Virus record (IMG/VR): IMGVR_UViG_3300046005_000635
Coordinates: 1-22,339 of that record
Reading direction: 5' to 3' (one strand)
From: a virus
Length of the DNA stretch: 22,339 bases
Under the pieces are notes generated by a model. That model was not told the DNA's origin and did no database searches. It saw nothing but the letters and a program-made list of their open reading frames with translations. The position numbers and the translations under genes are program-made. Positions 926-22,339 of this stretch are shown piece by piece. Positions within the stretch are counted from its first letter, which is position 1; each line of letters starts with the position of its first letter.

Positions 926-2503
926 ATGAAACGAATTAACGGTATCCAGTTCCGCCAAGGCGTAGAGAAGGCAGCACACAAGATCGCTGCTGACTTGGGC
1001 ATGAAGATTACCATCGAGTGGATGAATGGCATCACCACCGCTGCTATCAACAAGGCAGGAGACATCATCCTGTCATCGGTGGCTGACGATGCAATTGTGA
1101 CTCAGGCACTGCTCGACAAGTACATCGGCTTTGTGATCCATGAGTTGCTGCACCGCAAGTACACCGACTTCGATGCTCGCTCAATGGATCAGTATGTGAG
1201 CCAGTTGCACAACGCAATTGAGGACGCATGGATCGAACGCAAAGGCATTCAGGCAGGGCTGACAGGCAACATTGCCCCGCTGCTCTCGACTCTCATTAAC
1301 AGCATGGCAACCGAGGCCAACGATACAGTTAAGGACTGGGCAGATCCTCGCCAGTATCCGTTTGTGTTGGCGGTCTACCTGCGTGACCATGCGGCAGTTA
1401 AGTGCCCACTGGCTAATGGCCTTGAGCCTGTGTTCAAGGAAGCGTTTAAACGTTTAGACACCTGCAAAAGTTCTACTGACACCCTCAAGCTTGCGAAGTG
1501 GGTACATGACCAGTTGAAGGGGTTGTCAAAGAATGCCCCTAAAAAGCCTCCACAGGGGTCTAAAAAGGACGGAAGAGTTGAAGGTGAGGGTCAGGGCACA
1601 GAACAGGGTGAAGACGCAGGTAATGGCGCAGGCCAAGGCCAAGGTCAAGGCGTGGGTCAGGCAACAGCACCAACCGACAAAACCGAGGCTGTCGAGGTCG
1701 AGCCTAAACTGGGTGAAGGCCAAGGCTATGGCGGTACTTACTCCGTCCAAGAAGTGCGGGGCGCACAGAAGCACACACGCGATACCGATGCATTCGAGAT
1801 CGATATCAATGTACCTGCACGACTGCGCTTTGAGGTGAAGAAGTTGTTCGAGAACAGTGGCACTGACGAGTTCCAAACCAACCGCCGTGCGGGATCGATC
1901 AATGTCAAATCCCTTTGCAACATCAAGACATCTGACCGTCTGTTTAAACGCCGCCTTGAGACTGAGGGTGTGGACTCTGCGGTGGTGATCATGTTGGATC
2001 TTTCAGGGTCAATGTGGGACAAACACCTTATCAGGGGTGCTGACGGTAACCCAGTGGTTGTAACCCGCATTCAACAGGCACTGAACGCTGCTGCTGCATT
2101 GCTCGATACCCTGAATCGGGCGCAGGTCAAGACAGCCATCGTCAGCTTTGGGTCAACCGTTGCAGTGTTGAAGGAGTTCACCAAGCCTGTACCTGCCACT
2201 GTGCAGTTGTTGGCTAAGGTCAGGGCATCAGGGTCAACCAATGACTACCATGCACTGCGCTACAGCCATGAGATCTTGTACGCTCGCCCTGAGTCACGCA
2301 AGGTGGTCTTTGTCCTGACCGATGGGTACGGTCACATCGAGGCGACAAGGGCACAGGCCATCAGCGGAGAAAACCTTGGTATCACCACAGTGGGTGTGGG
2401 CATAGGTGGCGATGTGTCAAGGGTCTACACACAGTCGGTGGTAGTTGAGAACGGTGGCAACCTTGGTGATGCATCGTTTAAACAAATCAAATTAGCAGCT
2501 TAA
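926..2503 (+). CDS. CobT-like protein: HExxH metallopeptidase-like domain plus VWA domain
   Basis: Partner of the upstream AAA+ ATPase. Residues 1-200 contain HELLH (72-76), followed by NAIEDAWIE (96-104), which has the spacing of a gluzincin-type third zinc ligand near E99. Residues 205-270 are a low-complexity Gly/Gln/Glu-rich linker. The C-terminal 350-525 region is a von Willebrand factor A domain with a complete MIDAS: DLSGS (358-362), T438 in GSTND, and D466 in LTDG. VWA domains of this family bind a divalent metal and dock to MoxR-type rings. The start follows an AAGGGG ribosome site at 6 bases. Whether the HELLH site cleaves protein or only binds metal cannot be told from sequence. 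Four GTTTAAAC sites lie in this gene pair (546, 1444, 1942, 2476). Confidence 0.85.
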   Translation: MKRINGIQFRQGVEKAAHKIAADLGMKITIEWMNGITTAAINKAGDIILSSVADDAIVTQALLDKYIGFVIHELLHRKYTDFDARSMDQYVSQLHNAIEDAWIERKGIQAGLTGNIAPLLSTLINSMATEANDTVKDWADPRQYPFVLAVYLRDHAAVKCPLANGLEPVFKEAFKRLDTCKSSTDTLKLAKWVHDQLKGLSKNAPKKPPQGSKKDGRVEGEGQGTEQGEDAGNGAGQGQGQGVGQATAPTDKTEAVEVEPKLGEGQGYGGTYSVQEVRGAQKHTRDTDAFEIDINVPARLRFEVKKLFENSGTDEFQTNRRAGSINVKSLCNIKTSDRLFKRRLETEGVDSAVVIMLDLSGSMWDKHLIRGADGNPVVVTRIQQALNAAAALLDTLNRAQVKTAIVSFGSTVAVLKEFTKPVPATVQLLAKVRASGSTNDYHALRYSHEILYARPESRKVVFVLTDGYGHIEATRAQAISGENLGITTVGVGIGGDVSRVYTQSVVVENGGNLGDASFKQIKLAA

Positions 2504-2515
2504 AGGAGAATGAAA

Positions 2516-2677
2516 ATGGACGCACGGTATATGGTTTTTATGGCAGCACAGGCAGTGCTTGTGCTTGCAGTTGCATGGGATATGGATGGATATCTATCCA
2601 AGCTAATGCTCATGTATGGGTCGGCGATAGTTGGTCATGTGTTAACCGAATTATTTAATCAAGGAGATACAGAATGA
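2516..2677 (+). CDS. Small predicted membrane protein (53 aa)
   Basis: A 53-codon frame with two hydrophobic stretches (about residues 8-22 and 29-45), so it is probably a small inner-membrane protein. The AAAGGAGA ribosome site ends 6-7 bases before ATG 2516; the in-frame ATG at 2510 sits too close to it. Its stop overlaps the next start as ATGA (2674-2677), typical of translational coupling and the main support for a real gene. No family recognised. A holin-like role is conceivable from size and topology but is not supported by anything else. Confidence 0.65.
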   Translation: MDARYMVFMAAQAVLVLAVAWDMDGYLSKLMLMYGSAIVGHVLTELFNQGDTE

Positions 2678-3033
2678 AGACAGCAGAATTAACAGGAGTC
2701 GCCCTTGACTGGGCAGTGGCGAAGTGTGAAGGATTACTTGCGCCCGACGGAATACATTTATCGGACGAATACTGCGATAGTCTGCACCGTCATCAAGAGG
2801 GAGGTTTCTTATCCGACTGGTCACAAGGTGGGCCGATTATTGAGCGAGAGAAGATAAAACTTGGTTGGGTTGTTGACCATTGGGTGGCGCAAAAAGACTT
2901 CAATTACAACAAGAGTTTTTATGGGCGCGACCCGCATCACCCTCTTATTGCAGCCATGCGCTGCTACGTTGCAAGCAAATTAGGTGACGAGGTAGAGATA
3001 CCCGAAGGTTTAAGCACAGGAGAAACAAAATGA
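2674..3033 (+). CDS. DUF2591 / NinX-like phage protein
   Basis: This 119-residue protein matches the layout I recall for the phage DUF2591 (NinX) family: an N-terminal LTGVALDWAVAKCEG, a central WSQGGPIIERE, and a C-terminal LIAAMRCYVASKLGDEVE. The family is common in the nin-like region of temperate phages and has no established biochemical function. It is coupled by ATGA overlaps to the genes on both sides. Confidence 0.85.
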   Translation: MKTAELTGVALDWAVAKCEGLLAPDGIHLSDEYCDSLHRHQEGGFLSDWSQGGPIIEREKIKLGWVVDHWVAQKDFNYNKSFYGRDPHHPLIAAMRCYVASKLGDEVEIPEGLSTGETK

Positions 3034-3257
3034 AATTATCAGAACAATTTGCCCTTAATCAATGGCTGTCCGACTACCCCGATGACATGACCTATGAGGA
3101 GGTCATTGCCGCCTTGAAGGTCGAGAATCAGTGGATGGTCGATGACATCACCGTGTGGTACTTGGTAGAGAACAACACGACTGATCAGGTCGCCATGTTC
3201 ATTGAAGATACCAAGGATGCCTTTGAACGAGCCACCGCTGACCAACCGATTCTGTAG
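3030..3257 (+). CDS. Small acidic phage protein, function unknown
   Basis: 75 residues, strongly acidic, with the phrase LSDYPDDMTYEEVIAAL near the N-terminus and a FIEDTKDAFE tail. It resembles small proteins I have seen in betaproteobacterial phages, always without an assigned function. An AGGAGAAAC ribosome site precedes the ATG, which overlaps the preceding stop (ATGA). No cysteines, signal or membrane segment. Confidence 0.75.
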   Translation: MKLSEQFALNQWLSDYPDDMTYEEVIAALKVENQWMVDDITVWYLVENNTTDQVAMFIEDTKDAFERATADQPIL

Positions 3258-3265
3258 GTGATGAC

Positions 3266-3523
3266 ATGACAATAGAAACCAGTAGTTGGTATCACACCAA
3301 CAAAACCACCGTTTGGGCGCACACGCAATTGGGTGAGATCCTGATCGCAGACTGCACCAACCGGTCTATGACAATGCATTCACAGCGTTTAAACACTAGG
3401 CTGATCACTGCTGCACCTGCGATGATGGAGTTGCTTGAGGATATTAAAAACTACCTTGAGCCTGACCATCTCAACCGCTACGCAGAGATCTGCAATAGTG
3501 TTCTCACAAGTCAAGGCGATTGA
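3266..3523 (+). CDS. Small phage protein with ITAAPAMMELLE motif
   Basis: 85 residues. The N-terminal half looks like a small beta-rich fold (WYHTNKTTVWAHTQ). The C-terminal half carries the amphipathic helix ITAAPAMMELLEDIK, a recurring tail in small phage proteins of unknown function (usual form AAPELLEAL). ATG at 3266 lies 8 bases after the preceding stop with a weak AGGTGA site. A GTTTAAAC copy (3387) encodes the Leu-Asn of its RLNT. Confidence 0.7.
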   Translation: MTIETSSWYHTNKTTVWAHTQLGEILIADCTNRSMTMHSQRLNTRLITAAPAMMELLEDIKNYLEPDHLNRYAEICNSVLTSQGD

Positions 3524-6507: not shown

Positions 6508-6804
6508 ATATGCATGGCAGCGTTAGCTGCACCCCTCGACTTGCATATAAGACCAGTCGCACGGATTGTTCGGGAACTGCCCCCTAGCCTATGTGATTGA
6601 TGATGATGGCTGGTACTGAAATCCAGCTTGTAATCCTCAGCCGCATGTAGCAGCCGTAACCGATTACAGAGAAAACAGGGATGGCTACCTGTGCCCATCG
6701 TGCATCAGTCTGCACACTCATCATCATCAATCACACAGTCGCATACCGTGTACCCTTTTCTTCCACGCCGTCAGGTTGAACGCTTGCTATCGTGTGGAGT
6801 ACGG
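6508..6804 (-). ncRNA. Candidate structured RNA or DNA element with multibranched stems
   Basis: Non-coding stretch dense in inverted repeats. A perfect 17-bp pair (6592-6608 with 6719-6735) encloses four hairpins in a row: GCTGG/CCAGC (6609-6613 / 6623-6627), TGTAATC/GATTACA (6629-6635 / 6662-6668), ACAGG/CCTGT (6675-6679 / 6688-6692) and GTGCA/TGCAC (6700-6704 / 6711-6715). On one side TCCAC/GTGGA (6762-6766 / 6794-6798) makes a further arm. On the other, ATATGCA/TGCATAT (6508-6514 / 6542-6548) encloses GCAGC/GCTGC (6517-6521 / 6526-6530). Strand is assigned minus only because the flanking genes are read that way. It could be a structured leader, a stand-alone RNA, or an origin-like DNA element. 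The short stems alone could be chance; the 17-bp stem is not easily so. Confidence 0.45.
6592..6735. repeat. 17-bp perfect inverted repeat, 110-base spacing
   Basis: The left arm (6592-6608) reads TGTGATTGATGATGATG and the right arm (6719-6735) is its exact reverse complement. The arms contain a GAT/ATC triplet run, which raises the chance of coincidence somewhat. The enclosed 110 bases fold into four short hairpins, described in the overlapping entry. Confidence 0.9.
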
Positions 6805-6817
6805 TTTAAAACCCAGC

Positions 6818-6988
6818 TTACATAGGGTATGGGTACTTCAAACGCTCATTGCGAATCGCTTCCGGCAAAACACCGTGACGCTTTGCAAACTGAATAAGAC
6901 CTTTTGGTAAGCCTAGTTCTCTAGCAATTGCAGATTGCTCTGCAGCAATGCGGGTTCGTTGGGCTTTGCGGTATTCAGTTCGTGTCAT
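6818..6988 (-). CDS. Small basic protein (56 aa), function unknown
   Basis: Short frame starting at ATG 6988 with GGAG eight bases upstream and ending at TAA 6818. The 56 residues are basic and helical. The segment AIARELGLPKGLIQFAKRHG has the rhythm of a helix-turn-helix (small residue, turn Gly, hydrophobic positions), so DNA binding is possible but not shown. It lies between the terminator at 7063-7143 and the structured gap, so it would be the first gene of the primase sub-operon. No family recognised. Confidence 0.6.
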   Translation of the reverse strand: MTRTEYRKAQRTRIAAEQSAIARELGLPKGLIQFAKRHGVLPEAIRNERLKYPYPM

Positions 6989-7062
6989 GTGTTCATCTCC
7001 AAAATGTGGTGGAGGTACTTGCCGCTCGTGGATGAACCCACATTGATGGCAGCTTTCCCTCC

Positions 7063-7143
7063 AAAAAAAGTAAAAAAAAACCGCTTACTACTGCCCCCTG
7101 TAGGAACTACCCGAAGGTAGAAGAGGCATGAGTAAACGGTTTT
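7063..7143 (-). terminator. Intrinsic terminator with nested UUCG hairpin
   Basis: Read on the minus strand, a 12-bp stem with one mismatch (7132-7143 with 7077-7088) ends in a run of nine Ts, then AC and seven more Ts. Inside the large loop are TGCC/GGCA (7092-7095 / 7125-7128) and CTACC-TTCG-GGTAG (7107-7120), a canonical very stable cUUCGg tetraloop on this strand. It would stop transcripts coming from the endonuclease-rusA genes, so the primase sub-operon downstream needs read-through or its own promoter. Confidence 0.75.
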
Positions 7144-7173
7144 CGCTAGTCACTTCCTACGGCAACTGTTCGC

Positions 7174-7200
7174 AGTGTACATGATTTTTTAGGATGTCAA
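7174..7200 (-). promoter_or_regulatory. Possible leftward sigma70-type promoter
   Basis: On the minus strand a perfect -35 TTGACA (7200-7195) is followed after 15 bases by TACACT (7179-7174). The spacer is shorter than the optimal 17, so it is a weak call. A start near 7167 would run straight into the hairpin terminator at 7143-7063, giving a roughly 100-base RNA or an attenuated leader. Confidence 0.3.
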
Positions 7201-7260
7201 CAGCTTTTTGAAAATATATTTTTGAGGGATGCCGTATAATTTAAACGCTACGTTGTTCAT
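7189..7260 (-). CDS. Possible 23-aa leader peptide
   Basis: A very short frame (23 codons) from ATG 7260 with an AAGGAGAGGAG ribosome site starting about 17 bases upstream and its nearest GGAG 6 bases from the ATG. It is basic and hydrophobic (YIFKKLL) and lies between rusA and the terminator. Its VAFK is encoded by GCGTTTAAAT, a one-mismatch copy of the iterated palindrome. The good ribosome site is the only strong support; it could be a leader peptide for the downstream terminator or noise. Confidence 0.3.
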   Translation of the reverse strand: MNNVAFKLYGIPQKYIFKKLLTS

Positions 7261-7279
7261 GTAGCTCTCCTCTCCTTGA

Positions 7280-7681
7280 TTAGCCCCGATTGGCTTGCGT
7301 CTTTCGGGGCTTCTTTTTTGGCTCGACATCTTCTATAGACTCAATCAAGATCTCCGCCCTCGGCTCTTCCTTGTCTAGATGCCAGTAGCAATGCCTCTCC
7401 TTAACCTGACGATCGTTCTCGTAGATTAGCCCCTGCATAAGGTCTAGGATCAGGCTCTCATCAAGGTCAGGTCTGCGTGAGGCGTACCAAATGTGCAGAG
7501 TAACCCTCAAGTCTCCGGTCATCAGGACAGGAATTTTCTCGCACTGTTGTAAAAAAGCATCGCCATAGTTCAACGCCTTCTGAGACTTGATCAGGCGAGA
7601 CATCCCCCCAAACCTCACTACACGACGTGAGTTGCTCTTGCTGGCTGGTTCCCCCAGTATCGTAAAACTTACTTTATTCAT
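7280..7681 (-). CDS. rusA: RusA-family Holliday junction resolvase
   Basis: 133 residues, close to the E. coli RusA length of 120. RusA proteins are homodimeric Mg-dependent nucleases that cut four-way junctions. The N-terminal VSFTILGEPASKSNSRR and the acidic active-site motif RPDLDESLILDLMQGLIYEN with D72, D74, D80 and D90 match the family. The C-terminus ends in a basic tail, KKKPRKTQANRG. It follows the endonuclease gene with an ATGA overlap (7678-7681). RusA would resolve recombination or replication intermediates made by the annealing system of the rightward unit. Its start segment is echoed at the start of the upstream gene. Confidence 0.9.
   Translation of the reverse strand: MNKVSFTILGEPASKSNSRRVVRFGGMSRLIKSQKALNYGDAFLQQCEKIPVLMTGDLRVTLHIWYASRRPDLDESLILDLMQGLIYENDRQVKERHCYWHLDKEEPRAEILIESIEDVEPKKKPRKTQANRG
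7283..7317 (+). terminator. Plus-strand terminator-like hairpin inside the rusA 3' end
   Basis: GCCCCGA (7283-7289) pairs with TCGGGGC (7304-7310) around a 14-base loop and is followed on the plus strand by TTCTTTTTT. It overlaps the last codons of rusA, which is read the other way, so it would end rightward (antisense) transcripts coming from the 6383-7280 gap. No rightward gene is seen there. Confidence 0.5.
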
Positions 7682-8448
7682 AGTTTGTTTAAACCCTCAA
7701 TAGGCCAACCAAAATTTATGGCTGCATTGTTGTACGCCAATGCTGCATCCACTGCAGAAGAAAATCTCCCTAATTGAATTTTCTTACTGTTTTTTTGAAT
7801 GTAAGCCTCGTATGTTCCTCTTCTTTTGTCAAAGCAAACTCCTTTGTAGCCTGAGTTAGAGCGTGGCTTACGAAGCATCCTCGATTTGATGAGTTTTTCT
7901 TTCCATTCTTGTGTCCTAACTACCTGCTTCCCAGAAGCTGATAATTTTGCTTTGTGATCTGCCGTTCTTAAAGGTTTTTTCTTTCCTTTGTGTGCAGCAG
8001 AAACTCTTGCTCGGTGTTCTTCTGTTTGTTTTTGCCCTAGCTTTTTGTTTCTCATCTTCATACGTGTCTCTGTCGATGGGCACAAAATTCCATAACCGCC
8101 AGCGCAGCTATTGGTTAAATCTTTGTATTTGGACATCCATTGACGTTCAGCATCTGACCATTGTTGTTCGCTTACAACATCTAAAATTTTTAATTCTGGT
8201 TGCAACCCAACACTTTTAAGTTGCTTAATCCATCTGGTCTTGTGCGTTTCAGACTTGTCTATTAAATGCCTTTTGTACCTATCTTCGGGAACAAAAGATC
8301 TTCCAATGTAGCGAACATTTGCATCTCTTGGATCAACCAAAGCATAGATAAACACCTGCCTTGCCTTACTTGCAGGCTCACCAAAAATAATTATTGATAT
8401 CGCTTGCTTTTCTGTGATAACATCACTATCATTGTGTTCGGGAATCAT
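7678..8448 (-). CDS. GIY-YIG homing-type endonuclease with NUMOD3 and AP2 domains
   Basis: About 256 residues from ATG 8448 (AAGG six bases upstream; a TTG two codons earlier is the alternative). Order: a RusA-like leader IIIFGEPASKAR (19-30); a GIY-YIG nuclease with FIY (34-36), YIG (47-49) and a likely catalytic Glu in DAERQW (E101); NUMOD3-type helical repeats (about 126-175: TRMKMRNKKLG, TEEHRARVSAAHKG, ADHKAKLSASGK); and a C-terminal AP2-type DNA-binding domain (about 200-250: GYKGVCFDKRRG, LGRFSSAVDAALAYNNAA). Such enzymes cut at long target sites and spread their own gene. The gene is richer in A+T than its neighbours, fitting recent arrival. It overlaps rusA by ATGA and carries GTTTAAAC at its last codons (7687). 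Confidence 0.88.
   Translation of the reverse strand: MIPEHNDSDVITEKQAISIIIFGEPASKARQVFIYALVDPRDANVRYIGRSFVPEDRYKRHLIDKSETHKTRWIKQLKSVGLQPELKILDVVSEQQWSDAERQWMSKYKDLTNSCAGGYGILCPSTETRMKMRNKKLGQKQTEEHRARVSAAHKGKKKPLRTADHKAKLSASGKQVVRTQEWKEKLIKSRMLRKPRSNSGYKGVCFDKRRGTYEAYIQKNSKKIQLGRFSSAVDAALAYNNAAINFGWPIEGLNKL
8404..8432 (+). promoter_or_regulatory. Candidate rightward promoter inside the endonuclease gene
   Basis: TTGCTT (8404-8409), 17 bases, then TATCAT (8427-8432) on the plus strand, ending 36 bases before the start of the rightward recombination unit. Only 20 bases separate the two divergent starts (8448 and 8469), so any promoter for this unit must lie inside the neighbouring gene, which makes this candidate plausible. 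Confidence 0.42.
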
Positions 8449-8468
8449 AAACAACCTTGGAGAGATGA

Positions 8469-9338
8469 ATGAGAGTTACAAACAAATACGACCTACCAAT
8501 AGCTTTAGTGAGAGCAATGTCTAGAGACGATTACACCAAAGGCAAGTCTGATTATAGTGTCACAGGTCTTTTGACACCACCTAAAGTTGCACTGTTACGA
8601 GAACAGTACAACGACAGGATGGAGATGGACATCTCTGACAAGATGTACACTTTCCTTGGGACTGCACTGCATAAGGTGATGGAAGACACCGTGATGCCTG
8701 AGAACTGCACCTACGAGGAACGTCTCTATGCAGATATCGATGGGACAACCATCAGCGGTGCTATCGACATCCAAGAGCGCATCCCCGCAGGAACAATCGT
8801 TTGGGATTACAAGGTCACCTCTGTGTGGTCGGTGATGAACGAAAAGGCCGAGTGGGTTCAACAACTCAATATGTATAAGTGGTTCGTTGAGACAGTAAAG
8901 AAGGAGCGGGTTGTTGGGTTAAAGATCTGTGCCTTCCTACGTGACTGGAGCGGCAATAAGACAGGTGAGAACTACCCCGAAGCTTCTATTGTGATTGTTG
9001 ATATCCCTTTGTGGAGTGCAACCGAGGCACAAGAATTTATCCGTAACCGTTTAAACGCTCACAAGGAAGCAAAGATGGTTATGGACTTCGGACAGGAACC
9101 ACCTCCCTGCTCCGACAAAGAACGTTGGATGTCGGAAACGACATTTGCCGTGAAGAGAGAGGGTCGCAAGACTGCGATTCGTGTATTAACCAGTGAGCAA
9201 GAAGCCAAGGAAATGGCAGAAAAGGAAAAAGGATATGTCGAAACAAGACTCGGAGAACCCCGCAGGTGTGCAGGAAACTACTGCGGAGTTGCAGAGTGGT
9301 GCAAGCAATATCAAGGAGAAAAAAATGGATCAAACTGA
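8469..9338 (+). CDS. PD-(D/E)XK nuclease, Cas4/RecB-like
   Basis: 289 residues. Motifs of the RecB/Cas4 nuclease superfamily: SVTGLLTPPK near the N-terminus, H68 in GTALHKVME, D100 in SGAID, D113 and K115 in WDYK, and Q132/Y136 in QQLNMYK. Four cysteines, C214 then C267, C272 and C278 (RRCAGNYCGVAEWC), have the one-plus-three layout that holds an iron-sulphur cluster in Cas4 and AddB; a zinc site is the alternative. It probably degrades DNA ends to expose single strands for the annealing protein encoded next, which it overlaps by 14 bases. GGAG lies 6 bases before the ATG. There are no CRISPR genes nearby, so this is a phage recombination nuclease rather than an adaptation factor. Confidence 0.82.
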   Translation: MRVTNKYDLPIALVRAMSRDDYTKGKSDYSVTGLLTPPKVALLREQYNDRMEMDISDKMYTFLGTALHKVMEDTVMPENCTYEERLYADIDGTTISGAIDIQERIPAGTIVWDYKVTSVWSVMNEKAEWVQQLNMYKWFVETVKKERVVGLKICAFLRDWSGNKTGENYPEASIVIVDIPLWSATEAQEFIRNRLNAHKEAKMVMDFGQEPPPCSDKERWMSETTFAVKREGRKTAIRVLTSEQEAKEMAEKEKGYVETRLGEPRRCAGNYCGVAEWCKQYQGEKNGSN

Positions 9339-9972: not shown

Positions 9973-10281
9973 GTGGCTACATACAACACTCCCTACAAAC
10001 CACTTCCCGATTCCGGCTCTCTTAACAAGCAGACCACAAAGAACAACCCTAAGTCTCCTGACTACTGGGGTGAGATTCGTGTAAACCTTAAAGACTTGAC
10101 TGCGATCAAAACAGAAGATGGACTGACCATCATTAAGTTAAGCGGATGGAAACGTGAAGACAAGAATGGTCGCACGTTTCTTTCTTTAGCTGTGAATCGT
10201 TTTGTTCCACAAGAACAAGGCGGCAGTGTTCGTCAAGAATCACAGGCCCAAGAGTTTCCTGAAGAAGATATTCCCTTCTGA
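9973..10281 (+). CDS. SSB-like protein with acidic DIPF tail
   Basis: 102 residues, GTG start with AAGGA six bases upstream. The core (about 28-75) has the alternating strand pattern of a small OB-like fold: YWGEIRVNLKDLTAIK, then TIIKLSGWKREDKNGRTFLSLAV. A flexible Gln/Ser-rich linker follows, and the last residues are PEEDIPF, essentially the acidic C-terminal tip by which bacterial SSB recruits partner proteins. The core is shorter than a standard SSB, so the assignment rests on the tail, the neighbours and the fold pattern. Confidence 0.6.
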   Translation: MATYNTPYKPLPDSGSLNKQTTKNNPKSPDYWGEIRVNLKDLTAIKTEDGLTIIKLSGWKREDKNGRTFLSLAVNRFVPQEQGGSVRQESQAQEFPEEDIPF

Positions 10282-10283
10282 TC

Positions 10284-10694
10284 ATGGCACTGCAATTTGA
10301 ATGCAGGAAAGTGGCGTTGAAACAAGATCGAACAGGTTTTGTTTTGACTCTATCTCTACATCCCGATGAGGCTCCCGAAGAACTGCTTCGTGATTTTGTT
10401 GGGGCACGTTACATGTGTGTCTTGGCTCGTATTAAAGATGATGAGTCTCACACAGATTACAAGAACCGAGTAACGATTGCAGGCATCCTATGTCGCAGTC
10501 ATGTCTTCCAAAAGTTTATGGAAGAGATCTACTCAGGCAAACCGTTGTCAGAAGATGAAACCGCTGAGTTGCTTTGTGGTCTTTGCAAGATTGAGTCTAG
10601 AACAGAACTCAATGGCAAAGATGAGGCGAAGAAAGCTTTTGACAGTCTGTTGGTTGAATTTGAAGAATGGAAAACAAATGGCACTGCCTTTTAA
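10284..10694 (+). CDS. Conserved-looking phage protein in recombination cassette
   Basis: 136 residues with a start three bases after the SSB-like gene. The N-terminus FECRKVALKQDRTGFVLTLSLHPDEAPEELL is beta-rich, and GARYMCVLARIKDDE follows. The C-terminal half is helical and acidic. I recall similar proteins next to SSB or annealing genes in phages but know no function. C-terminal helices might bind a replication partner; this is only inferred from position. Confidence 0.7.
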   Translation: MALQFECRKVALKQDRTGFVLTLSLHPDEAPEELLRDFVGARYMCVLARIKDDESHTDYKNRVTIAGILCRSHVFQKFMEEIYSGKPLSEDETAELLCGLCKIESRTELNGKDEAKKAFDSLLVEFEEWKTNGTAF

Positions 10695-15512: not shown

Positions 15513-15786
15513 CAAACTCCTGAAGTCTGTCAGAGACTGCCCCTGCCAATACTGCGGTGCTATGGATGGAACCATAGTCGCAGCCCACTCCAATCAGATG
15601 AGGGATGGGAAAGGCAGGGGTCTCAAGGCTGACGATTACCGTATCGCGGCACTATGCTACAAGTGCCACACGGAGCTAGACCAAGGCAAGAACATGTCAC
15701 GCGAGGAGCGTTTAAACATGTGGGAGGACGCTCATCGAGCCACGATCGGGTGGCTCTTTGAGAATGAGAAGATTAAGGCTGTATGA
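15499..15786 (+). CDS. YbcO-like HNH nuclease (DUF1364)
   Basis: 95 residues. Zinc-binding and HNH-like residues are C14, C16 and C19 (CPCQYC), H30 in VAAHSNQ, and C53, C56, H57 (CYKCH), with the family phrase GLKADDYRIAAL between them. YbcO-type proteins are small phage nucleases found in nin-like regions near RusA and NinG; their exact role is not settled. It is the last gene of the rightward unit and overlaps the converging giant gene by 14 bases. GTTTAAAC at 15710 encodes RLNM. Confidence 0.85.
   Translation: MYRSDKLLKSVRDCPCQYCGAMDGTIVAAHSNQMRDGKGRGLKADDYRIAALCYKCHTELDQGKNMSREERLNMWEDAHRATIGWLFENEKIKAV
15737..15759. terminator. Possible bidirectional hairpin between converging units
   Basis: GAGCCAC (15737-15743) pairs with GTGGCTC (15750-15756) around a six-base loop, followed on the plus strand by only TTT. 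It lies inside the last codons of the HNH gene. The U-tract is weak, so termination there is uncertain, but it is the only good hairpin near the convergent end. Confidence 0.35.
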
Positions 15787-18700
15787 CTTTTCGGATCGCC
15801 CGTATATCATTCACCAGTAAATTCTGAGCCTTCGTAATCTCAAGCAGGATTTCTCGTTTCTCATCAGGCGGGATGTCTGCAGAGCGAACCATGTTTGCCT
15901 GATCCTGCAAGTCCTGCATCTGCTTGTTCAGATCGTTGATGAAGTCTTTAGCCGCATACAGCATTGCATTCTTCTCTACGTACTGAGCAATAGTTGGGTC
16001 ATTGCTCTTCTCAAGGAAGTTCACCGTCCGCACAACCGAGTCAACCGAGTTCTTTAGGTCGTAGTACGCAGTGATCTTGCCCCTAGCCTCTGGGTCTGCA
16101 AAGAACCGCTTGATGACAGGCATCTGCTCAAAGCGTTTGGATGCTCTTTGCACACCGCTGTCTGGCATAAGTGAGGTGATGGATGCATCAAGAAGATCCA
16201 AGGCATACATACCCATTGTTCCTGTGTAGCCCTTGTATAAATACTCAAGCTTCATTGGAGACATACCTGTTGCCATGCCCAATTCCTGTGCCACCTTAGA
16301 TGTATTTGCTCCAACTTGGTACTCTGGGGCTACATCTTTCATGTTTCCAGAAACAATCTCTCTACCTGTAAACAGAGAGTAGTTTGACTTTACTTCGTAG
16401 TAAGGGGCTATAAACTGAGGCAATGGGCTTATGCCAAAGGTGTTCGACAAAGCTCTCTTTGCTGCTTCGGCAGAATCCTTGTTGGTATCCATGCCATAGA
16501 AGCTGCGGTAGATACGCTCAGGGACTGTCTTAAACAATGTACCAACCTCAAATGGGATTGGAATCTTCAAAGGTGCTCTGCCTTCGCCAAGCGGGATGAT
16601 CCAGTTGTTGTCCTTGACCTCTTCCTCTTGATTTTCGTAGTCAGGGTTACCAGCGATAGCTGCGGCGTACATGGCGCTCATAGCCATGATGGTTGATCCA
16701 CGGATAAACATAGCCTTTTGGACTTGTTTCTCCATAGCTGTAGCGTCTTTATTAAAGAACGGACGGATGCCGGAGCGGAAGAACACATCTAAGCCCTGAA
16801 CACGAGCGTTCAAGAATGGGATGACGGCGGCTGCAATACGGACTACTGCGGAGCTACCCTTGCGGTTAAAGTTAAGCACCTCTAAAGAACGATGCAGAGC
16901 CTCTGCCTCATTGCCTGTCTCAGCAAGGGTTGCCTTGTAGATTGCAATGCGGGTGGCAGCATCAGACGCTGTTGTACCTTTTTCCAGAGCGCCCCAGAAG
17001 AGTGTAAATGGAGAGGCGGCTGTCTCAAATGTTGTCTTTGTTCCGGTCTTTTTACGGATGTCTTTGGCAAACTCGCTTGTGCTTGCCTCAATATCACGGG
17101 AGAACTCATATCCACCAAGAACACCTGCGCTCAGTAGCTTCTGGTACTCAGGAGAACTATTCATCAGGACGCTGCCAAACTCTTTCATCGTTGAAACGAG
17201 CGGGGTAATCTTTGCACCGCTTGTAACGTATGCAGATACAGAGTCACGCATCAAGTTAGCCAGCATGAAGCCCGGATCTTTGGTAATTAAATTCCGCAGA
17301 AGGTCTGCTGGCTTGGCAAAGATGCTTAGGAATGGCAACTCAGGCAGGTTTAAACTGCTTACAGCATCAACCCAGAGCCGGTCAGCGCATTCGTAGGAAA
17401 CCTTCTGTCCCTTTTCCAAGATGGTAATTGTGTTTGGAGAGGATGAGACGTTGTCTAACTTCTGAACCATACCTATGAAAACACCAGCATCAGCAGCCTT
17501 CTTAGCTGCCACGTTCTTCATACCAGCTTGAATCGTTGCCTGCGTGTTGCGGACAACTGTCTCAAGGAAGTCAGCCAATGGAGCATCGCTTCCAGTAATC
17601 TTCTTTGGCGCTTTAACCCCAGAGATGCTTTGGAAGATGTTTGGCCCGATGGTGCGCTCCCCATCAATCTGACGGTAGAAGGGCAGGTAGTCTGAGTACT
17701 TGACGAATTCGGCTGCGTTCTGTGCAGAGATAACGCCTGTATCCACTGCGTATTTAACCAAGCCGTCGTTGTACTTGATCCAGTCTTTCTGGACACTGAC
17801 GAACTCTGGGTACTTTTGTTCCAATTGTTTTGCGTAAGCAAAGTCTTGCTGTGTAAACAGTTCTTCCTTACCGTTCGCCAAAAGTCGCTTACCGCGTTTG
17901 GACGCAGCCCAGAACTGATACGCCTGATACATTTTAGGATCACCGTAACGGGCTAATGGGGCAAATATAGCTACAGCACCTTTGATGGTTCCGTTTTCAT
18001 TGCTGACAGTTGTATAACCATCCTTGTATACAGGGATGCCGCCGATACGGTCTCCTACACCCAGTGCAGATGCAGCAACACCAGCGGCAAGATCAGACTG
18101 AAGCGCAGCAGCGTGGGCATTGGAATCAGCTAAACGCTCAACCCCACCCATCTTCTTGGCTACCAATCTCTCTACATCGCTCAATCGGTTGTAACGATCA
18201 AGACCCTTCTGGCGCAGGTAGCTGAAAGACTCAGGGGCCAAAGCCTCTGTAAGACGCTCAATGAATCCAACCTCTTGGCGAGTCTGTGTGGTGCGGTTAA
18301 TAGCTGCAAAGATAGCTGCCCCATTGGGCATGTTCTTAATGTCTTCTGTTACGTTAGTGCGGAGACTTTGTTTTACAACATCGGCTCTTCCGGAGGTTCC
18401 TGTTCCCCGTACAGTGCCACTTGTTGGTTCCACCTCGTTGGAGGTAATCCCAGTGTCTTTAGCAGATTGAATGGGTACTCTAGACCAGCTTGGGTCTTTG
18501 TTTGGGGAACTGTCCGTGATTCGAGCGCGGACTTCGTCTGTTGTGATTTTTCCGCTTTGGGATTGTTTCCAAATGGATTTAACATTGTTTACAGCCTTTT
18601 CCGTTTTAAATGTGTCAGGGAATAGTCCTCGAACTTTTTCCCATGTAACTGATTGCATCTCACGAGGCAATACACCAACTTCTTTTGCTGCACGACGATA

Positions 18701-21700
18701 AGCCTCGGCATATTCTCCGTACAGTCCGTTCTGACCATGCAATGAACTAGAGCCTTGCCCAAGCCAAGCTTGCCTTACTTCCGGTGAACCTGCGCCAAGA
18801 GGTTCAAACCGTGCAGCAGCAACGGCATGAGTGTCAATTGTTACATGCTCATCAGGGGAATCAGGATACACGATATTGTTGTAAAAGGAACGAACTTTAT
18901 GTGCGTCACCCATTTGATCACTGATATTTTTTAATGAGTCGTCGTTTAAAATAGACAACGCTTTTTCAATATTCTTAGTGTTACCCCAAGGTATATTGGA
19001 TGGTTCGCCATCCTTCTTGGTCATAACTCCAGCAGACTTACCCTCTGGAGCAACCAAGTGATACTCTCGGCTGTGATGAGTTTCATCATAGGCACGTAGC
19101 CACCAAGGTTGCAATCCAGTGCCTTCAACATCTTTAAAAGACTTCCCATTAATTGCATTGCGGATGCGAAGCATTTCTTCAGGGTTGCCCTTTTGCTTTA
19201 TCTCGTTAATTTTTGAGTTAAACCAATTCTTCATTGCACTGTCTGCAACGGTATTTTGATGGTTTTTCCAAATAGTAATTACTCGTGCAGCTTGGCTAAC
19301 ATTTACATCCCAAGGGGTTTGTGGGCTAAGAGCAGCTAATACACCAGACGCTGAACGTTTTGAAATTCCAGCAGCTTCGGCTAGGGTGCTGGCTATCTTG
19401 TTAGCGCCCTTGTACCAATTCTTGCTGCGGTTGCGAATGTCTTTTGGTGTTGCATTCCATAGATACAAAAGGTTATCTTTCAACGCATCAACAAAATGGT
19501 TTATAGTTGCTTCGTCGGAGTCAGACTTAAACTGACCCATCAATGGATCGTTTCTTACAAGATCTGCGTGTTTTGCTAGAAGTTTGAGATCTTCTTTGAC
19601 AACACCAACCCCAACGTTCAATTTATCTGTATCGGGGTTTTCTGTAGGGTTAACAGAAGTTGGTTTGCGTGTGCTAATAGTTTCTTCTTCTGGGCTAAAC
19701 TTTCCAGAATTTCTATCACTGCGAAGGCTCTTGCGCTCTTCAATGATACGGTTTTTCTCTAACTTACCAGACGCTTTAAGATCTGCAACTGTGCCTTGGT
19801 AGGTGGTAGGAACATCGTGGTTAAGGATAACCATCATTCCCATATCTGGGGATGCGTATCCGTCGTATCCAGCATCTACAACACCAGACTCAAACTTGTT
19901 GAAGTCACCCTTAGAAGCTGCGCTGATGCGACGCATCTCCGCTCCGGGGCCAAGTATGTTGTTTAAACTTTGTGTGTGTACCTGATTCCCAACGCCAGAC
20001 TCAACCATCGGCATTGAGCCGTCTGGTCTCTCTATGTAGAAGTAAGCCCGCTTCTTAATTCTTCCGTCAGAGGATTCGGATAGGCGATCTTTCTCAGCGC
20101 CTTTAAGCCCCGAACCAGACATGCTACCCATTAGGACTGGAGTCTTACTCCGTCCATAGTGGATGCCGTCAAAGGCTAAGGCATTTTTCTGTTTTTCTCC
20201 AAGGCTGATTCCTTCATCGCTTCCTCGGCTGGGTCGAACGGGAGGTTGTTTAGGTCTAGCGGCTGATTCGATCCAGCGGTTGCGGAGGTTGATTGCGTCC
20301 GTGGATATGTTGTCAAGGTTGCTACGCCCGATCCGCCGAACATCTGCCCCTTCGGTACGATTACCTCTCTCACCTGTGCCATATCGTGTTCCTTCTAAAT
20401 AAGCTTGCCTGTTATCGGGCTGAATAAAGTCACTATGAAACTTGTGAACGTCAGAGACATCAATGATTCCATCGTACTCAAAATTTGATACAGAATCTAG
20501 TATCGCCTTACGATATTGCTCGTCTGTAAGGGTAGAAACCTTGTCATTGTATTCTGAGAAGTTTCCGTACAGCAAAGATCCTCCACGCAGCGTATCTGAA
20601 TCCGCCTGTGGAACTTCCTTAGCAATGTGTTTTCTCAGCCCATTCAAGTCTGCATCGCTCATCCCTTTGGGGATATCAACCTTAACGAAACCAGCCTGAG
20701 ACCCAGACGATGTGTTGCTTTCGTCGTAAGCAATCATTGCCTTTTGGTCTAAAACATAACCAATTACATTTGCCAACTCAGACAACTCATCAATAGATGC
20801 GTTCTTTGGAGCGTTTATTAGAATGTTGGGGTTAAGCTCATTTAAATATGTTCCGTTGGAGTACTCAACCTTGTAACCCTCAAGGCCCATCTCTTTTAAA
20901 ACATTGTTTACGACTTTGTTGGTGACCGACTTGGTTGTTGCAAGCTTGTCTTCCTGAGACATGGTGCGCCATTGTTCTGCAATTTCTTGGTCTGGGTTCG
21001 GAGCTACCTCGGCAACAATACCCTTCTGCAGTTCTCTTGCGCTTAAACGCTCCTTGCCTGCAGCCTTCTTTCCAGCGGTAAGCTCTCCACGCTCAACCTT
21101 GCCGAATACATCGTCGGATGTTGTGTAGCCTGCACCGTTAAACGAATTACGCAAAGCCTCAAAGAACTGACGCATTTTGTTCAGCAGAGTGGTAAACACC
21201 CCTTTAGGAGCGCCGTTTACATCAAAGTCACCGAAAGCGTCGGCAATGGCCTCCTCACGGACAGCCTGCATATCACCTTTGTACAGGTCTACATATGCCT
21301 CGTAGCGGGACTGTTGCCCAGCCTCCAGAGGACGACCATCTATATTGCGCTCTTTGAGGTACTTGTCGATCCAAACCTTATCAGCTTGGTTCTCCAGAAC
21401 TCCCCACTGACCTTTGGTAAAGAAGCCCAGATCTTTTAAACCGTGCAGGGACTCATGGCGTAAGACTCTAATCGGGTTGTTAGCGTCAAGGGCTACCTTG
21501 ATAGTGCTTCCAGCGTAAGAGCCTTCTGCCTTCATCCCCGCTTCGATCTTTAAGGCTACATCACCCAGACCAAAACGCTTCAGCATTGGCAGGAGGTTGG
21601 ACTTGATAGACTCCTTTTGGGTAGTTACCAAGGGTTCTTCGGCAGGCTTTTGTACAGGTTCTTGTACAGGTTTTTCTGCAGCCAAGAAAGGCTTAGTGCC

Positions 21701-22339
21701 CTTCCTGCGTTCCAATTCCTTGCTGATGCGGGCTTTTAGGCCGGGAGACTTTGTCTCTGCTGCAATCTCGTTTAAACGGGCAACAGTGTGGTTCTCTATG
21801 GCGTGTTGAAGAGCTTCCTCACGGGTGGCAAAAGACTTCTCGCTTACGCCCTTTTCCTTTGTGGTGAAAGCCTTGACGTTTGCCGCCTTCTTGCCAGCCT
21901 TGACCGTAACTTCCTGCTGGAGGTATTCCTTTGTCTTGTTTAACTCACCAACCTTCTTGGCTGACTCTTCGACCATAGCGGTGTGCTTGGCAGATGCCTT
22001 GTTGTACTCAGGGGTTCCAAATAGCCCATTGGCTTCCATAGCATCCAACGAACGCTGGCTCGCACTGAGCGTCTTCTGTTCATTGGCGATGGACTTGTCT
22101 ACTTGACTGATTGTCGGGGCTGCTGAGTCACCAAGCGTCTTGGCCTTGGCCTTTGCTTCTGCTTCGTTCTGGGTAGAGAACAAAACTTTGTCGCCACGCA
22201 TGACATTGAAGCCAGTAGGTTCCGCTGGTTCAAAACCTTCCTCAACTCTGAACTCAGACTGAGGTACAGGGTTAACCCTAATGAAGTTGCCATTAGAGTC
22301 TAAGTCTAGGTCACCGTTACGGTATGCAGACTGCAGCAT
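15773..22339 (-). CDS. Giant polyvalent (virion-injected type) protein, 5' end open
   Basis: At least 2188 residues; the window ends at an ATG, so the true start may lie outside. Residues 1-250 are helical and Lys/Ala-rich. About 255-375 is a zincin-like domain with RHESLH (H295, E296, H299) and EEAIADAF (E362/E363) as likely third ligand. About 720-860 has HYGRSKTPVLMGSMSGSGLK and KKRAYFYIERP, reminiscent of toxin-like modules of phage polyvalent proteins. About 915-1290 is a helical domain of unknown role with GISKRSASGVLAALSPQTPW and VTIDTHAVAAA. About 1330-2188 resembles the C-terminal region of large polyvalent proteins that I recall as LPD38. Such proteins are thought to be packaged and delivered into the host with the DNA. 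Three GTTTAAAC sites lie in it (17348, 19961, 21770). Confidence 0.75.
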   Translation of the reverse strand: MLQSAYRNGDLDLDSNGNFIRVNPVPQSEFRVEEGFEPAEPTGFNVMRGDKVLFSTQNEAEAKAKAKTLGDSAAPTISQVDKSIANEQKTLSASQRSLDAMEANGLFGTPEYNKASAKHTAMVEESAKKVGELNKTKEYLQQEVTVKAGKKAANVKAFTTKEKGVSEKSFATREEALQHAIENHTVARLNEIAAETKSPGLKARISKELERRKGTKPFLAAEKPVQEPVQKPAEEPLVTTQKESIKSNLLPMLKRFGLGDVALKIEAGMKAEGSYAGSTIKVALDANNPIRVLRHESLHGLKDLGFFTKGQWGVLENQADKVWIDKYLKERNIDGRPLEAGQQSRYEAYVDLYKGDMQAVREEAIADAFGDFDVNGAPKGVFTTLLNKMRQFFEALRNSFNGAGYTTSDDVFGKVERGELTAGKKAAGKERLSARELQKGIVAEVAPNPDQEIAEQWRTMSQEDKLATTKSVTNKVVNNVLKEMGLEGYKVEYSNGTYLNELNPNILINAPKNASIDELSELANVIGYVLDQKAMIAYDESNTSSGSQAGFVKVDIPKGMSDADLNGLRKHIAKEVPQADSDTLRGGSLLYGNFSEYNDKVSTLTDEQYRKAILDSVSNFEYDGIIDVSDVHKFHSDFIQPDNRQAYLEGTRYGTGERGNRTEGADVRRIGRSNLDNISTDAINLRNRWIESAARPKQPPVRPSRGSDEGISLGEKQKNALAFDGIHYGRSKTPVLMGSMSGSGLKGAEKDRLSESSDGRIKKRAYFYIERPDGSMPMVESGVGNQVHTQSLNNILGPGAEMRRISAASKGDFNKFESGVVDAGYDGYASPDMGMMVILNHDVPTTYQGTVADLKASGKLEKNRIIEERKSLRSDRNSGKFSPEEETISTRKPTSVNPTENPDTDKLNVGVGVVKEDLKLLAKHADLVRNDPLMGQFKSDSDEATINHFVDALKDNLLYLWNATPKDIRNRSKNWYKGANKIASTLAEAAGISKRSASGVLAALSPQTPWDVNVSQAARVITIWKNHQNTVADSAMKNWFNSKINEIKQKGNPEEMLRIRNAINGKSFKDVEGTGLQPWWLRAYDETHHSREYHLVAPEGKSAGVMTKKDGEPSNIPWGNTKNIEKALSILNDDSLKNISDQMGDAHKVRSFYNNIVYPDSPDEHVTIDTHAVAAARFEPLGAGSPEVRQAWLGQGSSSLHGQNGLYGEYAEAYRRAAKEVGVLPREMQSVTWEKVRGLFPDTFKTEKAVNNVKSIWKQSQSGKITTDEVRARITDSSPNKDPSWSRVPIQSAKDTGITSNEVEPTSGTVRGTGTSGRADVVKQSLRTNVTEDIKNMPNGAAIFAAINRTTQTRQEVGFIERLTEALAPESFSYLRQKGLDRYNRLSDVERLVAKKMGGVERLADSNAHAAALQSDLAAGVAASALGVGDRIGGIPVYKDGYTTVSNENGTIKGAVAIFAPLARYGDPKMYQAYQFWAASKRGKRLLANGKEELFTQQDFAYAKQLEQKYPEFVSVQKDWIKYNDGLVKYAVDTGVISAQNAAEFVKYSDYLPFYRQIDGERTIGPNIFQSISGVKAPKKITGSDAPLADFLETVVRNTQATIQAGMKNVAAKKAADAGVFIGMVQKLDNVSSSPNTITILEKGQKVSYECADRLWVDAVSSLNLPELPFLSIFAKPADLLRNLITKDPGFMLANLMRDSVSAYVTSGAKITPLVSTMKEFGSVLMNSSPEYQKLLSAGVLGGYEFSRDIEASTSEFAKDIRKKTGTKTTFETAASPFTLFWGALEKGTTASDAATRIAIYKATLAETGNEAEALHRSLEVLNFNRKGSSAVVRIAAAVIPFLNARVQGLDVFFRSGIRPFFNKDATAMEKQVQKAMFIRGSTIMAMSAMYAAAIAGNPDYENQEEEVKDNNWIIPLGEGRAPLKIPIPFEVGTLFKTVPERIYRSFYGMDTNKDSAEAAKRALSNTFGISPLPQFIAPYYEVKSNYSLFTGREIVSGNMKDVAPEYQVGANTSKVAQELGMATGMSPMKLEYLYKGYTGTMGMYALDLLDASITSLMPDSGVQRASKRFEQMPVIKRFFADPEARGKITAYYDLKNSVDSVVRTVNFLEKSNDPTIAQYVEKNAMLYAAKDFINDLNKQMQDLQDQANMVRSADIPPDEKREILLEITKAQNLLVNDIRAIRKVIQP

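Follow-up and report, generated by a model that had tools for sequence, protein, structure and literature searches.

In all likelihood, the analysed window (all 22,339 nucleotides of the viral stretch, from IMG/VR record IMGVR_UViG_3300046005_000635) holds a mobile homing-endonuclease gene in a conserved 5' motif of rusA, directly after GEPASKA, together with a recoded rescue 5' end for the gene it entered. The element is absent from close relatives. In the window, the native rusA is split after codon 29, and the endonuclease body is fused in frame to the severed leader. RusA remains encoded in full, by way of a replacement 5' end with an ATG that overlaps the stop codon of the endonuclease (Table 1).

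Table 1. Features of the rusA region of the window
Feature	Coordinates	Strand	Evidence
Mobile unit: endonuclease body and replacement rusA 5' end, 743 bp against 15 bp in L053	7619..8361	minus	
Fused ORF: rusA leader and predicted GIY-YIG endonuclease with NUMOD3 and AP2 modules	7678..8448	minus	
5' remnant of the resident rusA, MIPEHNDSDVITEKQAISIIIFGEPASKA (native start codon and 29 codons), now the ORF leader	8362..8448	minus	27/29 codons as in L053
GIY-YIG catalytic domain, sub-threshold in Pfam	8119..8352	minus	I-TevI catalytic domain 1mk0 profile match
NUMOD3 motif, just sub-threshold	7969..8037	minus	Pfam
AP2 DNA-binding domain, sub-threshold	7714..7854	minus	Pfam
Complete rusA gene (Holliday-junction resolvase family), of resident origin from 7618 on	7280..7681	minus	Pfam RusA; identity to L053
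ATGA overlap of the endonuclease stop and the spare rusA start	7678..7681	minus	Putative translational coupling
Regenerated (spare) 5' end of rusA, MNKVSFTILGEPASKSNSRRV (21 codons), with codons changed from those of the empty allele	7619..7681	minus	L053; shorter against L003
Divergent PD-(D/E)XK nuclease gene beside rusA; homologue in L249/L250 invaded by a like element	8469..9338	plus	PDDEXK_1 21.9 bits (cut-off 22)

The endonuclease ORF runs on the minus strand from an ATG at 8448 to a TGA at 7680-7678, with a translation beginning MIPEHNDSDVITEKQAISIIIFGEPASKARQVFIYALVDPRD and a Shine-Dalgarno-like AAGG ahead of it at 8455-8458. All three of its recognizable modules score below the Pfam cut-offs: GIY-YIG at 18.5 bits (cut-off 22.6), NUMOD3 at 20.0 (20.4) and AP2 at 26.5 (33.3). 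The GIY-YIG cut-off is exceeded in the homologue L102 (30.6 bits) and also in L112, L125, L149 and L360, and a profile of five GIY-YIG relatives matches the I-TevI catalytic domain (1mk0) with E = 0.0098. The Arg, His, Glu and Asn positions are invariant across a five-sequence alignment; together with Tyr, these are what we take to be the GIY-YIG catalytic residues. We assign the window protein a GIY-YIG catalytic domain, in which I-TevI-like catalytic positions are retained. Stand-alone relatives begin with a Met a few residues ahead of the domain's I-Y, where the window protein has its leader. Translation of the endonuclease could also begin, with no leader, at an internal GTG that has an AAGG-like site directly ahead of it, and the fusion protein may not be the only product. 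Elsewhere in the window, genes for a MoxR-like AAA ATPase and, after it, a VWA-domain protein lie in positions 1-2503, and the minus strand of 15773-22339 encodes a 2188-aa protein with LPD38 and DUF7178 domains, of the large polyvalent protein type.

A RusA search of viral contigs gave 98 confirmed relatives. In 76 of the best 80 of these loci the frame is uninterrupted, with a short variable leader followed by the GEPASK motif and the rest of rusA; the remaining four (L001, L002, L006 and L007) are the window's own occupied variant. L053, the closest intact allele, reads MIPERNDSDVITEKQAISIIIFGEPASKA up to the insertion point and NSRRVVRFGGMSRL beyond it, rusA continuing from the leader as NSRRVV. 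It matches the window at 27 of the 29 leader codons and at 94.9% of flanking positions, and this empty allele and the occupied L002 both come from metagenome 3300046006. The original prediction had noted that IIIFGEPASKAR in the endonuclease ORF resembles the start FTILGEPASKSN of the RusA product behind it, and proposed that the mobile endonuclease gene inserted close to the 5' end of a rusA-like gene and became joined to that gene's opening codons. The resemblance is real, both peptides being present, and uninterrupted relatives carry exactly that leader. Since L053 has this leader without an interruption, the endonuclease ORF opens with what is truly the 5' end of the resident gene, and the empty alleles exclude a chance resemblance.

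The presence of the endonuclease is polymorphic at one site, L053 and L003 being empty and the window occupied. A further contig, L178 (sample 3300044952), terminates exactly at the junction, on bases common to both alleles, as would be expected of an assembly fork between the empty and occupied forms. The inserted DNA is A+T-rich: G+C makes up 39.7% of 8361-7682, compared with 50.4% of the body of rusA and 47.0% of the adjacent gene. This fits a foreign origin of the mobile unit. Two other differences among these contigs were noted. L006, L007 and L053 all stop at the same point of rusA, near window position 7384 (codon 99-100), which suggests a second population polymorphism within the gene. 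L053 and L003 also have ~ 380 bp extra between two matching blocks (L053 1547-1927, against window 10281-10284); in L053 this includes a small ORF, beginning MKKFVSHLVVDRYLIKNPTASSK, that is missing from the window.

The gene behind the endonuclease starts at 7681, reading MNKVSFTILGEPASKSNSRRVV, and overlaps the endonuclease stop by 4 nt (ATGA). Its product belongs to the RusA family by Pfam (31.1 bits, cut-off 22.8, over residues 10-114 of 133). From GEPASK to V21, 10 of 12 codons differ from L053, nine of them synonymously, whereas of the 79 codons that follow only 3 differ (Fisher p = 3e-9). This bears out the earlier remark on the many codon differences between the two DNA segments. Identity to L053 returns abruptly at window position 7618, past codon 21. 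The contrast is weaker against L003 (92% protein identity), with 7 of 9 tract codons differing compared with 29 of 115 (p = 0.0024), and with this comparator the tract could be shorter by a few codons. Because of the near-identity to L053 past codon 21, only the first ~ 21 codons being new, we take the gene behind the endonuclease to be the resident rusA with a replaced 5' end, and not a second copy. The mobile unit most likely brought in the replacement codons along with the endonuclease, which the kinase element of L112 and L114/L324, described below, shows directly for its own spare start.

The window is not the only instance of this design. Taking an element to consist of a remnant, a GIY-YIG gene and an overlapping spare start, we found eight distinct elements (nine insertion alleles) in RusA, dNMP-kinase-like and PD-(D/E)XK genes. 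The endonuclease stop overlaps the new ATG in all eight (the window and seven others). A profile search with the five GIY-YIG relatives (160 confirmed, 80 kept) includes L101 and L102, whose endonucleases are 48% and 47% identical to that of the window. In each, a rusA leader reads in frame into the endonuclease after GEPASKS, at the same insertion codon as in the window, and the endonuclease ends in GLNKL with an ATGA overlap with a new rusA start, MKSVFLTIYGEPASKSN and MSNITLTIYGEPASKSN, respectively. L244 and L245 are empty alleles of L102, their native leaders each differing from that of L102 in 2 of 16 codons. Relative to them, 5 of 9 (L244) and 6 of 9 (L245) codons of the L102 spare tract are changed, compared with 11 and 15 of the 101 codons outside it (p = 0.003 and 0.0014). 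In L149, a distant RusA (59.5 bits) has its leader MMQIDLPYPPSSNR in frame with a GIY-YIG endonuclease, followed by MITIELPYPISSNRYWR. No leader-bearing endonuclease lacking a nearby rusA was seen, as the original prediction expects; rusA lies directly behind in all six contigs found to have a leader-bearing relative of the window endonuclease (four window-like, L101 and L102). The spacing between rusA and its divergent neighbour was surveyed at 161 loci, made up of the two kept sets and L101, with some contigs counted twice: 152 have 69-234 nt, six are occupied in rusA, two are others (L249/L250) and one is without the motif.

Where did the spare start come from? The spare tracts of the window, L101 and L102 all use GAA, GCC and SKS, and distinct native rusA tracts mostly have GAG (73/93), GCA (52/93) and SKA (82/93). 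The shared usage suggests that the tract is an inherited component of the element, that a cut site is being avoided, or both. It is quite possible, if on balance doubtful, that the spare start is instead a hybrid derived from another phage's rusA, a co-converted donor, so that the recoding was unselected and self-immunity is a by-product; the mobile unit would be the same. The spare peptides do look like the beginnings of other RusA proteins (for instance LTIL in L302), and the foreign C-termini of fungal mORFs have been interpreted as horizontal transfer (PMC3630166). However, the closest rusA in the collected set still mismatches the tract at 7 of 30 nt for the window and 4 of 30 nt for L102, and the agreement of all three tracts on GAA and GCC, against the native majority, also speaks against this reading. 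An exact DNA search with the spare tract matched the four window-like contigs only.

Elements in other genes bear on what travels with the endonuclease. L112 and L114/L324 carry nearly the same element in two alleles of a dNMP-kinase-like gene (Pfam DNMK, slightly sub-threshold). Their remnants, MENHIKLLIIGDARHG in L112 and MENNIRLNIVGSARHG in L114/L324, both ending at the junction, are identical at 32 of 48 nt, and the 44 nt of the L324 remnant that lead up to the junction are free of mismatches to the empty allele L347; ahead of these 44 nt the two starts differ. From the junction, the L112 and L324 elements have 9 mismatches in 624 nt (98.6% identical). The first 62 nt of the spare start are identical, and 46 mismatches follow in the next 300 nt (85% identity in the downstream gene). 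Because the element is near-identical while the remnants and the downstream gene diverge, these alignments demonstrably place the endonuclease and spare start of the kinase element in one unit that moved as a whole. A second DNMK-type kinase is invaded in L125 (also L127 and L130), where the remnant MGNNLIAISGKINSG is identical to the empty allele L356 at 43 of 45 nt; the recoding contrast for this pair, over 15 codons, is not significant (p = 0.14). A kinase of this second type is also invaded in L360, with the remnant MIIGISGKLGSG. Both kinase groups are invaded between the Gly and Lys of the P-loop.

In L249 (identical to L250), a GIY-YIG ORF has invaded the PD-(D/E)XK gene beside rusA (2176-2945, minus strand); its endonuclease reaches a GIY-YIG score of only 14.7 bits (cut-off 22.6). 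Three successive starts of one gene stand in a row: first a remnant that opens with MKITNKFLL, then the short MKITNKHN and, behind the GIY-YIG ORF, the live start MLITNKFLLPDT. This layering suggests two successive invasions, as far as the arrangement of starts can tell. The design of L360, L149 and L249 was recognized by inspection. No close empty allele was found for L101, L112, L149, L360 or L249.

These elements also speak to whether the RusA leader is a working part of the endonuclease, for targeting or regulation, and not a leftover. The remnant is fused in frame to the endonuclease in all four rusA elements (window, L101, L102 and L149), the distant RusA subfamily included, as a function would lead one to expect. 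In the other four (kinase and PD-(D/E)XK), however, the remnant runs into a stop codon and a separate start serves the endonuclease, and among native genes the leader sequence is freely variable. We consider a functional leader unlikely.

The original prediction read the rusA behind the endonuclease as a tandem or re-acquired copy, which would make the interrupted gene a duplicate killed by the insertion. Two copies of the GEPASK motif do flank the endonuclease, but no second body exists, codon 22 onward being the resident gene, and a short 5' tract moves with the endonuclease in the kinase element of L112/L324. A duplication of rusA thus seems very improbable. Introns and inteins are the usual hosts of endonuclease genes within genes, and in some introns the ORF is joined to the exon ahead of it. 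Splicing of a group I intron or intein that contained the ORF would restore the product and leave the second motif incidental. This usual route is even harder to credit here, since there is no Rfam intron hit, group I core included, in window 6600-9000 up to E = 5, the 743 bp are nearly all coding, and the spare start restores the gene without splicing. An intein was rejected outright, as the in-frame TGA at 7680-7678 closes the endonuclease ORF and no frame runs through both halves of the host gene. An assembly chimera might be suspected where all data are metagenomic contigs and L178 ends exactly at the junction, but identical junctions in four other contigs with four sample numbers, and the same design in unrelated contigs, make it scarcely conceivable.

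The reading of a mobile endonuclease gene that carries a recoded rusA start was extended by scanning GIY-YIG loci for a gene start duplicated across the endonuclease, with candidates then checked by eye. In a permutation test, 6 of 56 non-redundant loci (L097, L101, L102, L112, L114 and L125) score 38-50, with a null 99th percentile of 34; the test serves only to nominate candidates, as the low-complexity L157 scores 42 (a false positive) and the null includes family members. A wider scan of the fetched loci covered 3,221 gene junctions and gave 51 hits, many of them low-complexity, with L249, found via gene spacing, among the scorers. Of six new hits inspected, L360 and L149 are real; L335, L333 and L198 were rejected as tandem paralogues and L187 as a chance or paralogue match. 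One further possible case is L383 (~ 2400-3400 of LR756502, a 642-kb uncultured jumbo phage), where IIFLGKSGSG is followed by a GIY-YIG ORF and then MVKYEKCIIMGPSGSGKDFL, again at a P-loop; its score is borderline (31) and its remnant has no clear start codon.

Among the matches listed from an endonuclease-profile search of viral contigs, the relatives are the four window-like contigs, L101 and L102 only; the other hits align only to the AP2/C-terminal part or to the rusA leader. The same search of genome contigs gave 37 stretches and no relative. None of 12 GIY-YIG loci sampled from isolate-phage records shows the design, so a spare start is not the rule for phage endonucleases. The stops of isolate-phage endonucleases often overlap the start of the next gene. 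In Rhizobium phage RHph_Y1_10 (L388, 1795-2412) and Proteus phage vB_PmiM_ZX7 (L389, 1714-2475), a GIY-YIG gene runs ~ 20 nt into the beginning of the large terminase gene, with no start remnant detectable upstream of the GIY-YIG gene, and no remnant was seen at the HNH/Sak overlap of Lactococcus PLgW-1.

The nearest described arrangement is that of fungal mitochondrial mORFs, endonuclease ORFs with a replacement C-terminus in atp6, atp9, cox2 and nad3 of Glomus sp. and Allomyces (PMC3630166). They resemble the window element in combining an in-gene endonuclease ORF with a diverged duplicate of the severed gene end to give a hybrid gene, in differences that are largely synonymous and, for atp9, in a GIY-YIG endonuclease (PMC3630166). 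However, mORFs replace the 3' end of the gene and leave the native 3' end behind (PMC3630166), whereas the window element lies in phage contigs, replaces the N-terminus with an ATG/stop overlap and keeps the native 5' end as a leader. By its layout, the window element is an analogue of mORFs and not a member, sharing the diverged duplicate and lacking the C-terminal, mitochondrial character.

Free-standing seg and mob endonucleases of T4 share with the window a GIY-YIG type, a stand-alone gene and a presence that varies between close relatives, but a review places them in intergenic positions with distant cleavage sites, unlike an element inside coding sequence with a replacement start (PMC2988022). 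Gene-splitting insertions are closer in position: according to the same review, mobE in Aeh1 nrdA and mobA in T4 gene 60 put an endonuclease gene in a conserved part of an essential gene, as in the window, but leave two polypeptides that reassemble, whereas the window re-encodes one full-length protein (PMC2988022). No phage element with a replacement gene start was found in searches of the open-licence literature in PMC. The arrangement is explained at the sequence level.

How might such an element persist? The endonuclease would cut the intact 5' region of rusA, and repair of the break from an occupied genome would copy the whole unit in. The leader would be translated from rusA's own start signals, and RusA could be made by re-initiation at the ATGA. 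Recoding of the spare start may keep the element's own nuclease from attacking it; with only half of the uncut site left in the remnant and changed codons in the spare start, the occupied allele would be self-immune. Recoding may also prevent loss of the element through recombination between the two 5' copies, which would make it hard to recombine out because the copies are too different. The best reading is of a natural counterpart of 'home-and-rescue' drives, with cleavage and homing as its presumed steps. In the HomeR gene drive, the rescue is reportedly recoded. HomeR sits in an essential gene and encodes that gene's rescue, as the window element seems to do, but it is a man-made CRISPR construct for insects, whereas the window has a natural endonuclease and a rescue of only the 5' end (PMC7968924).

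We lean, with less confidence than for the window itself, towards a general phage class of GIY-YIG home-and-rescue elements at the most conserved early codons of replication and recombination genes (RusA, the dNMP kinase P-loop and PD-(D/E)XK nuclease). In these, the spare 5' end would be recoded against the element's own cleavage and the gene re-started via a stop/start overlap, with layering possible. Endonuclease genes within essential genes are thought to require an intron, an intein or a product that tolerates being split, and bringing a spare start would be an alternative to all three. The elements account for odd annotations, such as 'endonucleases' with an opening that resembles the gene behind them, and phage genes annotated with a non-ancestral N-terminus. 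They would also offer a natural and recurrent model for the logic of recoded-rescue drives, in which several lineages and their empty alleles can be compared, and they make it testable whether synonymous recoding is selected by self-cleavage.
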